From positions 1 through 22,190 of the IMG/VR virus record IMGVR_UViG_3300035180_002381: 22,190 nt of DNA; one strand, given 5' to 3'. Positions 2,788-5,984 of this stretch are shown here, piece after piece (positions within the stretch are counted from its first letter, which is position 1; each line of letters begins with the position of its first letter). A program made the position numbers and the translations under genes. This DNA is from a virus. The notes below the pieces were generated by a model that was not told the origin of the DNA, did no database searches, and saw nothing but the letters and a program-made list of their open reading frames with translations.

Positions 2788-3501
2788 TTAAAAGTTAATT
2801 TTTCTACCTTTAGTCCATCCTTCAATTAAATATTTTTCTATATCTTCTCTTTTAATTTTCTTACTACGTTTAAGAGATATATTAAAAATCCAACAAGTAT
2901 TATATTGAGAATTTTTATCACCTTGTTGATGATTTATTGCTTTTAACGTATTTTTTCTTTTTTCGTTTGATTCTTGAGAATTTGCAGCAATAATTGCTCT
3001 ATTAGTAATCTCTAACATTAATTTTCGATTAGTTCTCCATAGTCCCTTAAAAGCTTTAGCTCCACCCTTTTTACAGCCATCATTTATTCTTTTTAAAGAA
3101 TCATCTGAGAGTTTATCAAGATTTGCAAATCCTCCAAGCTTTCCTAGATTAAAATAATGTTCCTTGGTCAATTTTTTATTACATCCAACCCAGCTACCAT
3201 CTCCACCCAATGTTAAATTCATACACATTGGATCAACCAACATTTCTTCATTTATTAATTCACGTTCACGTTTCTTTAAACTTTCTCGATCAGAACAAAA
3301 CTCTAAGATCTCTATCTTAAAATTCTCTCGTCCATACTTCTTGATTGAGCGCCATAGTCTTGTACCTGATCCGACGTATCCATCCTCAAGATTATCAGTT
3401 GAGTGCATTCCATAGTAGTACTTTCCATTTACTTGACAAGTTGTCTTGTAGATGAAGTGATATTTCTTTGGGTTAACATACCAATTTTGCTTCTTTTCCA
3501 T
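2788..3501 (-). CDS. GIY-YIG homing endonuclease (Seg-like), 237 aa
   Basis: Residues 16-31 (FIYKTTCQVNGKYYYG) carry the GIY-YIG signature in its Y-Y-G variant. It is followed by GYVGSGTRLWRSIKKYGREN (41-60) with the catalytic-type arginine region, and a Glu cluster (INEEM, 83-87). The segment LNLGKLGG...SNEKRKNTLKAI is typical of NUMOD3-like DNA-binding repeats. The C-terminus GDKNSQYNTCWI plus a basic helix (KKIKREDIEKYLIEGWTKGR) resembles the recognition tail of T4 Seg enzymes. Such enzymes nick or cut a recipient genome so that their gene and its flanks spread. It lies directly downstream of tRNA-Trp. ATG 3501 has a GGAG Shine-Dalgarno held inside a hairpin with an overlapping late promoter (3502-3535), implying late-only translation. 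It is paralogous to the gene at 4475. Confidence 0.92.
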   Translation of the reverse strand: MEKKQNWYVNPKKYHFIYKTTCQVNGKYYYGMHSTDNLEDGYVGSGTRLWRSIKKYGRENFKIEILEFCSDRESLKKRERELINEEMLVDPMCMNLTLGGDGSWVGCNKKLTKEHYFNLGKLGGFANLDKLSDDSLKRINDGCKKGGAKAFKGLWRTNRKLMLEITNRAIIAANSQESNEKRKNTLKAINHQQGDKNSQYNTCWIFNISLKRSKKIKREDIEKYLIEGWTKGRKINF

Positions 3502-3535
3502 GTCTCATACTCCAGTTGGGAGTATTTATAGAGAC
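3502..3535 (-). promoter_or_regulatory. Late promoter plus Shine-Dalgarno-sequestering hairpin for the GIY-YIG gene
   Basis: A perfect late promoter octamer TATAAATA occupies 3530-3523 on the minus strand. In RNA arriving from upstream, ATACTCC (3525-3519) pairs with GGAGTAT (3513-3507) across a 5-base loop, and GTCTC (3535-3531) can pair with GAGAC (3506-3502). GGAG is the ribosome binding site of the ATG at 3501, so it is buried. A transcript started at the late promoter would begin near 3517, inside the loop. It would lack the left arm and leave the site free. Confidence 0.8.
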
Positions 3536-3553
3536 ACAAAAAAAAGTTACATG

Positions 3554-3625
3554 CAGAGGACGAGGGACTTGAACCCCCAAGACAGGTTTTGGAGACCTGC
3601 ATGTTACCAATTACATCAGTCCTCT
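3554..3625 (-). tRNA. tRNA-Trp (anticodon CCA)
   Basis: The acceptor stem AGAGGAC pairs with GTCCTCT. The anticodon arm CAGGT-CTCCAAA-ACCTG gives anticodon CCA. The T-arm is GGGGGTTCAAGTCCCTC and the discriminator is G. CCA is not encoded (CAT follows), so the 3' end must be added. It lies between the ADP-ribosyltransferase-like fragment and the GIY-YIG gene. Confidence 0.95.
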
Positions 3626-3633
3626 TTGTTACG

Positions 3634-3795
3634 TTACGTAATGTTACCTTTTAATAACCCACTCTTATGCCAATTATTAGCATCTTTTGTGTTTACTGAA
3701 AACCATGCAGGACCTTGCTTAAATTTATCAAATTGTTCAGAACTTGAATGATAAACTGTTTTACTGATGGATTCAAATATTTCAATAATTTTCAT
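3634..3795 (-). CDS. Short ADP-ribosyltransferase-like fragment with capsid-targeting-like N-terminus, 53 aa
   Basis: The ORF begins ATG 3795 and reads MKIIEIFESISKTVYHSSSE, then QFDKFKQGPAWFSVNTKDAN. The pattern V-Y-H-S-S, F-x-x-F, then a W-F-S-V-N-T strand and A-N-N-W resembles the NAD-binding start of many ADP-ribosyltransferase-fold domains (V-Y-H-G-T ... F-F-T/S ... A). It stops after 53 residues, far short of a full domain, 9 bases before the tRNA-Trp gene. It is therefore probably a remnant cut off by rearrangement. MKIIEIFES parallels MKIHEILVE of the plus-strand gene, and IFE fits the T4 prohead protease rule. T4 Alt is an injected ADP-ribosyltransferase, which makes the comparison tempting. 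The assignment is tentative. Confidence 0.5.
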   Translation of the reverse strand: MKIIEIFESISKTVYHSSSEQFDKFKQGPAWFSVNTKDANNWHKSGLLKGNIT

Positions 3796-3896: not shown

Positions 3897-4475
3897 TTAT
3901 CTTTTTACCCAACATGTACCAAACTGAGAATTTTTTGAACCTAATTGTGAATCTTTTCTAGCATCAGACATCTTTTGTTTGGTTTTTCCGAGTGTGATTT
4001 GCCAAAAAACTTTGCTTGGGATGAATGTTTCATTTGCAACTTTATTTCTTAAAATATCTCCAACCTTTTTCAGCTTTTCATTTAATTCTTTTCGTTTATC
4101 ACTTCCATTTGGGTGATTTTTAGAAGCAGCAATTCCACCAGTTCTTGCAACAATAATTCGTTGTTCTTCTGTAAGAGTTGCATTCACATAAACCCAACTT
4201 CCTCTACCACCACACGTCAAGTTGTAGACATCATCTCTTCCTACAAACTCTTCATTTACAAGTCGTGCTTCTTCAGCAAACATCTCCTCAGGTGTCTCGT
4301 GAGTACTCAAGATCTCTTTCTTGAAGTTCTCAATGCCATATTTCTTCTTAGCATAACCGAGTTGCTTCCCTGATCCCATGTAGCTGTCATTCATGTCTTT
4401 TGTCATGTGACAGCCGATGTAGATCTTGCCGTTGACCAAATTGGTCAGTTGGTACACTAGATAGTAAATTTTCAT
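3897..4475 (-). CDS. GIY-YIG homing endonuclease, C-terminus lost by a frameshift (192 aa)
   Basis: I start it at ATG 4475 (MKIYYLVYQLTNLVNGKIYI); the frame runs to 4547 but upstream residues are encoded by tRNA-Ser. GIY-YIG signature: residues 5-21 (YLVYQLTNLVNGKIYIG), then YMGSGKQLGYAKKKYGIENF and the Glu-rich FAEEARLVNEEF. The frame ends ...NSQFGTCWVKR at a run of five A (3906-3902). Removing one A restores a frame continuing 39 residues to a stop at 3782 (DKISLKNKLDQLEKFVQERY, then VRGRTM...). That gives about 230 residues, close to the 237 of the paralogue, with the same basic C-terminal helix. The gene is thus a recent frameshift mutant, a slippage-dependent gene, or a sequencing error. 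A CATAAATA late promoter lies 5 bases before the ATG and there is no Shine-Dalgarno. Confidence 0.85.
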   Translation of the reverse strand: MKIYYLVYQLTNLVNGKIYIGCHMTKDMNDSYMGSGKQLGYAKKKYGIENFKKEILSTHETPEEMFAEEARLVNEEFVGRDDVYNLTCGGRGSWVYVNATLTEEQRIIVARTGGIAASKNHPNGSDKRKELNEKLKKVGDILRNKVANETFIPSKVFWQITLGKTKQKMSDARKDSQLGSKNSQFGTCWVKR

Positions 4476-4480
4476 GCAAG

Positions 4481-4488
4481 TATTTATG
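4481..4488 (-). promoter_or_regulatory. Late promoter giving a possibly leaderless mRNA
   Basis: CATAAATA (7 of 8 to TATAAATA) is followed by exactly five bases (CTTGC) and then the ATG at 4475. In T4 the octamer covers about -13 to -6, so transcription would begin at or next to the A of the start codon. Confidence 0.6.
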
Positions 4489-4515
4489 CACGAGTAACTT
4501 TCTAGTGTCCAGATG

Positions 4516-4600
4516 CGGAAGTTGTGAGATTCGAACTCACGGAACATTTCTGTTCGGCAGTTTTCAAGACTGCTGGTTTAAACCACTCACCCAAACTTCC
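4516..4600 (-). tRNA. tRNA-Ser (anticodon TGA)
   Basis: The acceptor stem GGAAGTT pairs with AACTTCC. The anticodon loop CTTGAAA gives anticodon TGA. A long variable arm (GAACAGAAATGTTC) is present as expected for Ser. The T-arm is GTGAGTTCGAATCTCAC and the discriminator G is right for tRNA-Ser. CCA is not encoded. It reads TCA and probably other TCN codons. Confidence 0.95.
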
Positions 4601-5558: not shown

Positions 5559-5646
5559 TGGGTCTCGGCTAGAATCGAACTGCATGCCTTGAAGGGAGAG
5601 CTTTACAGGCTCCTGACGGTACCAACCATCCTTACTTGCGAGACCC
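5559..5646 (-). tRNA. tRNA-Tyr (anticodon GTA)
   Basis: The acceptor GGGTCTC pairs with GAGACCC. The anticodon arm GGAGC-CTGTAAA-GCTCT gives anticodon GTA. It has the long variable arm expected of bacterial tRNA-Tyr, a T-arm GCAGTTCGATTCTAGC (imperfect outer pair) and discriminator A. CCA is not encoded. It is flanked by the 27-bp direct repeats. Confidence 0.93.
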
Positions 5647-5652
5647 AAAACT

Positions 5653-5866: not shown

Positions 5867-5943
5867 TGGTGAGTTGTGTAGGAATCGGAACTAGCCGCTC
5901 TCGGGGTTACAACCCGGGGCCCTACCATTAAGGCGTACAACTC
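5867..5943 (-). tRNA. Degenerate tRNA-like gene, loop reads GTA; identity uncertain
   Basis: A perfect acceptor stem (GAGTTGT / ACAACTC), discriminator A, encoded CCA and a good D-arm (GCCTTAATGGTAGGGC) are visible. The anticodon stem has four G-C pairs around the loop TTGTAAC, which by position reads GTA. However, the variable loop is short, unlike class II tRNA-Tyr. The T-arm (CTAGTTCCGATTCCTAC) is disrupted, as if one base was inserted and one stem side altered. It may be a pseudo-tRNA or a tRNA whose anticodon has shifted. It should not be given an amino acid without aminoacylation data. Confidence 0.6.
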
Positions 5944-5984
5944 ATGAATTGTATCATCTTCCACTGATTCTATGATGGTTTGGG

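Follow-up and report, generated by a model that had tools for sequence, protein, structure and literature searches.

A probable segB-type late-only switch ahead of a tRNA-adjacent GIY-YIG endonuclease gene in an uncultivated phage, with a candidate leaderless variant

Among the closest described counterparts of the locus reported here are two free-standing endonuclease genes, segB in the tRNA region of T4 and mobE of Aeh1, for both of which a promoter-plus-hairpin arrangement has been reported (PMC2988022, PMC3014915). The T4 segB leader, as read here, is GAACATAAATACTCTTAGAAATAGGAGATATTTATGTTC and has the same design as the leader described below. An initial annotation of the window (the whole 22,190-nt stretch of viral DNA that was analyzed) had presented a late-only switch in a free-standing enzyme as something new. 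Since T4 segB has been described with the same arrangement, that claim of novelty falls, and the first of the two loci discussed here is best seen as a further case of the segB type; a leaderless variant is what could be new.

The first endonuclease gene (2788..3501, minus strand) encodes a 237 amino acid protein that matches the PHROG 314 homing endonucleases with an E value of 3e-37 and T4 SegB with about 38% identity over residues 14-237, with 95% of the query aligned. It has a KNSQ...EGW-KGRK tail in common with SegB, its GIY-YIG Pfam matches are slightly below the cut-off, and a PDB sequence search gave no relevant match. By alignment, the product is a SegB-like GIY-YIG endonuclease with putative cleavage and homing activity. 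The gene is placed between tRNAs, with tRNA-Trp(CCA) (3553..3625, minus strand; called by ARAGORN and Rfam) immediately upstream and a gap of 51 nt between this tRNA and the ATG at 3501. Rfam scans recognized no group I intron, in line with the annotation of a free-standing enzyme and not an intron ORF. At the DNA level, the search for near relatives returned nothing beyond short tRNA or endonuclease stretches. The source phage is uncultivated, and its 22-kb fragment carries rIIA- and rIIB-like genes. Because no gp55 or capsid gene is in view within the window, we infer the use of late promoters by this phage from the rIIA/rIIB-type neighbors and from relatives; of the 21 environmental records searched, 8 yielded the gp55 late sigma factor, which was not found in the short fragments nearest the window. 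Two other features of the region were seen in passing. A short minus-strand ORF, MKIIEIFESISKTVYHSSSEQFDKFKQGPAWFSVNT... (3634-3795), lies between tRNA-Trp and a second endonuclease gene; it has no significant Pfam match and is perhaps a truncated ADP-ribosyltransferase-like head protein. The stretches 5560-5650 and 5880-5945 look tRNA-like by eye, are uncalled by Rfam and ARAGORN, and are possibly degenerate tRNA genes.

On the minus strand, the leader of the first gene runs TAACTTTTTTTTGT-GTCTC-TATAAATACTCC-CAACT-GGAGTAT-GAGAC-ATG. The octamer TATAAATA at 3530-3523 is an exact match to the T4-type late promoter consensus, stands 21 nt from the ATG and overlaps the left arm of a predicted hairpin. 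That arm (3519..3535) consists of GTCTC (3535-3531), a bulged TATAA (3530-3526) and ATACTCC (3525-3519), and is followed by the loop CAACT (3518-3514). The right arm (3502..3513) is made of GGAGTAT (3513-3507), which holds the Shine-Dalgarno GGAG (3513-3510) 8 nt upstream of the ATG (3501-3499), and GAGAC (3506-3502), the partner of the outer GTCTC. The late box, the Shine-Dalgarno arm and the outer pair thus stand where the initial annotation had placed them. The core stem and outer pair of its hairpin hold as well, but the limits it gave were too short, because a U8-G-U tract after tRNA-Trp (3536..3545) also pairs with AUGGAAAAGA (3492..3501), the start codon and codons 2-4, in the minimum free energy structure of the read-through RNA. 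The full stem runs from 3545 to 3492 and comprises 22 pairs with one 5-nt bulge. T4 late promoter boxes occupy -13 to -6 (position -13 is named in PMC2988020), so the predicted late transcription start is 3517, in agreement with the start near this position that had been proposed.

This leader hairpin far exceeds chance. The read-through RNA folds at -17.4 kcal/mol over 46 nt (z -4.5, 1 of 200 shuffles equally stable) and at -22.9 kcal/mol over 72 nt (z -4.8, none of 200), and the RNA from the predicted start at 3517 is predicted to be unstructured (-0.3 kcal/mol). To open the start region, taken as -12 to +2 of the start codon, costs 19.5 kcal/mol in the read-through RNA versus 2.9 in the predicted late RNA. 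The former value is the highest among the 32 ATG ORFs on the minus strand, and at 400 random sites the median is 5.2 kcal/mol and the 99th percentile 12.7. An AT-rich octamer and a hairpin might of course co-occur by accident, as chance alone should place about one TATAAATA in the window (1.13 expected, 2 observed); only some 0.002 occurrences are expected in one given 51-nt gap. Given the joint position of the two elements, the fold z scores, a further gene built on the same logic and a design conserved across relatives, coincidence is hardly credible as the explanation.

The locus is probably a late-only expression switch of the segB type. RNA made at early and middle times would read through the tRNA genes, and its leader would fold into the long hairpin; as this pairs both the Shine-Dalgarno and the AUG, the endonuclease would not be made. 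Late in infection, a gp55-type polymerase would initiate at TATAAATA, inside the left arm, and the RNA beginning near 3517 would lack that arm and leave GGAG free 8 nt ahead of the AUG. The proposal that read-through RNA hides the ribosome site and late RNA exposes it, already made in the initial annotation, is strongly supported by the predicted folds and by the same architecture in many relatives. From the sequence elements, these folds, the comparative conservation of the design, the tRNA context and the lack of a recognizable intron, we infer promoter use, start site, timing and the effect on translation.

For the comparison, IMG/VR was the source of relatives of the window's two GIY-YIG proteins; with start codons assigned by rule, these gave 33 distinct GIY-YIG genes at most 160 nt downstream of a tRNA. 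The motif N(A/T)TAAATA occurs between tRNA and ATG in 27 of these, versus 30 of 114 other genes that follow tRNAs (Fisher 1.7e-8; as the tested loci are interrelated, this and the other p values given here overstate independence). The late box is absent from the remaining 6, and also from the homologues of Klebsiella phages Merci and Nispero. The median opening cost drops from 9.7 kcal/mol in read-through RNA to 1.8 in the predicted late RNA, and shuffling the upstream sequence gives 6.0; the z score exceeds 2 in 14 of the 27 genes with a late box. L090, L091, L098 and L106 show no gain over shuffles. The promoter-in-hairpin design is also found in phages of Salmonella, Escherichia, Vibrio and Acinetobacter, and is present in two further T4-type SegB genes as well as in Vibrio phage phiKT1024 and Acinetobacter phage AM101. 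A second hairpin with TCGAAC, which resembles a tRNA T-arm, was observed between tRNA and late box in L087, L090, L091, L098 and L015.

The hairpin could instead serve mainly to shape the processing of the tRNA transcript, through 3' trimming, RNase E protection or attenuation, with late transcription independent of it. It comes straight after tRNA-Trp and includes a U8 tract, the RNA of T4 segB is RNase E-processed (PMC2988022), and the relatives L087, L091 and L098 have an extra hairpin between tRNA and promoter. However, the stem ends on the Shine-Dalgarno and AUG and not near the tRNA, the promoter lies inside the stem in relative after relative, no intrinsic terminator was called at the leader, and the late box is mostly absent from other genes after tRNAs, which together make a chiefly processing role unlikely.

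In many relatives, the same design is built from unrelated sequences. Covariation was of little use here, as the alignment of the second gene's close leaders has six sequences, too few for the purpose, and one two-sided change only; an arm-swap test was used in its place. In the 25 leadered GIY-YIG genes, pairing with the gene's own arm gives -11.8 kcal/mol versus -3.8 with swapped arms, and none of 5000 permutations did as well. Other late-box genes show a smaller gain (5.3 vs 3.1; Mann-Whitney for the class difference, 4.5e-5). Since the arms share little sequence, it is the complementarity itself that is kept. This bears on the idea that the promoter region is chiefly an operator at which the endonuclease represses its own late promoter, the RNA hairpin being secondary. 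Such autorepression is established for I-TevI (PMC2988022), and palindromic DNA around the promoter could bind a protein, but the arm sequences of homologues are wholly different while RNA complementarity is retained, a pattern more readily explained by RNA pairing than by a fixed DNA site, and the operator explanation is highly improbable.

The closest homologues of the first protein are L005, with 73% identity over the first 104 residues, and L004, with 53% identity. Their leaders keep TAACTTTTTTTTGT, and the T8 tract, an invariant TATAAATA and ATGGAAAAGAA are common to both and to the window. The segment from TATAAATA to the ATG measures 21 nt in the window, 17 in L005 and 5 in L004, with little similarity. 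The Shine-Dalgarno is gone in L004 and its predicted late start is the A of the ATG, and in its read-through fold the T8 tract is still paired, with AUGGAAAAG. The comparison of these three leaders indicates that an indel between promoter and ATG may make a leadered switch leaderless.

The second endonuclease gene of the window (3897..4475, minus strand) also has a spacing of 5 nt. It encodes a free-standing SegB/SegE-like GIY-YIG protein of 192 amino acids (PF19835, E 8.5e-9; PHROG 314, E 2e-41), lies immediately downstream of tRNA-Ser(TGA) (4515..4600, minus strand; ARAGORN) and has the leader CATAAATA-CTTGC-ATG, in which the late box (4481..4488, minus strand) is 5 nt ahead of the ATG at 4475, with the predicted +1 on the A of the ATG. 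A hairpin (4472..4493, minus strand; fold z -7.0) has the AUG in its right arm (UCGUGCA...UGCAUGA), and its outer stem reaches 4511 and about 4450. Read-through RNA needs 10.3 kcal/mol to open this start, and RNA starting at the AUG 0.0. The arrangement NATAAATA-N5-ATG is found in this gene and in about a dozen relatives. On balance, we favor the reading that these genes carry a leaderless switch, in which the read-through hairpin would hide the AUG and a late start would remove its upstream arm, giving RNA that begins on the AUG without a Shine-Dalgarno, and that leaderless late mRNA may be general in related uncultivated T4-type phages. In 13 GIY-YIG genes with spacings of 4-6, the 6-8 nt before the ATG pair with the gene's own first codons at -3.3 versus -1.5 when swapped (p 0.0002), and 73 non-GIY genes of the same spacing show a weak effect (-1.2 vs -0.9). 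Many genes therefore share spacing 5, and it is the hairpin at the AUG that characterizes the endonucleases.

Among 1944 non-GIY ORFs of the environmental contigs, NATAAATA stands at spacing 5 in 46, at spacing 4 in 7 and at spacing 6 in 2, against a mean of 4.7 per spacing over spacings 7-41. In the fragments of T4, Syn9 and S-CRM01, with ORFs of at least 80 amino acids considered, none of the 29 matches falls at spacings 3-7. Genes with spacing 5 or 6 include those for portal, terminase, tail sheath, tail tube, baseplate hub and endolysin, and NATAAATA-N5-ATG precedes structural and lysis genes in L202-L213 (a 328-kb contig), L191 and L184-L187. The 328-kb contig has the clearest spacing-5 peak, and its gp55 is present as a reading frame with one stop codon. 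With T4 late boxes placed as above, spacing 5 would put the +1 on the A of the ATG. That so many genes for structure and lysis have this spacing suggests that late mRNAs may generally be leaderless in those uncultivated T4-type phages. In a limited literature search, no account of such mRNA was found for T4-type phages. The isolated jumbo phages PA5oct and XacN1 were considered as carriers of the N5 spacing and rejected, as neither has a clear peak. Many spacing-5 genes (L192, L188, L187, L123) have MK(L/I)xEI-like N-termini that recall the capsid-targeting sequences of T4. The window holds one other TATAAATA (6269-6249, minus strand), which is followed by TCATC-ATG, again at spacing 5, and by a 29 amino acid ORF starting MKNFNSYL, which resembles a capsid-targeting N-terminus and has a terminator-like hairpin downstream (6138-6116).

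A control device studied in a few T4 genes appears to be standard for GIY-YIG endonuclease genes next to tRNAs in uncultivated T4-type phages, and one kept by pairing and not by sequence. If true, the leaderless variant would couple the start codon to the late promoter itself, and a number of late phage genes would then be predicted to engage ribosomes without a Shine-Dalgarno.

Several described systems resemble the first locus in part. T4 e and soc are likewise late genes that are found on long early RNAs and silenced by hairpins, and in the RNA made from the late promoters of e the 5' portion of the structure is missing (PMC3014915), but these are not mobile-element genes. Aeh1 mobE is a free-standing endonuclease gene with a hairpin that sequesters its ribosome binding site (PMC3014915); unlike the window gene, it is of the HNH family and inserted among ribonucleotide reductase genes. 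I-TevI of the T4 td intron has a late promoter inside the hairpin that hides the ribosome binding site, which is freed in late RNA (PMC2988022), but it is intron-encoded and its hairpin also protects splicing (PMC3014915), whereas the window has no detected intron. T4 segB is likewise a free-standing GIY-YIG gene between tRNAs, in its case in the tRNA-Ile/tRNA-Arg interval, with the late box (CATAAATA in segB) in the left arm, GGAG in the right arm and a hairpin, GAACATAAATACTC...GGAGATATTTATGTTC, that ends on the AUG as it does in the window. The window locus differs from segB in its tRNA-Trp neighbor, its arm sequences, the added U-tract stem and the bulge that holds TATAA.
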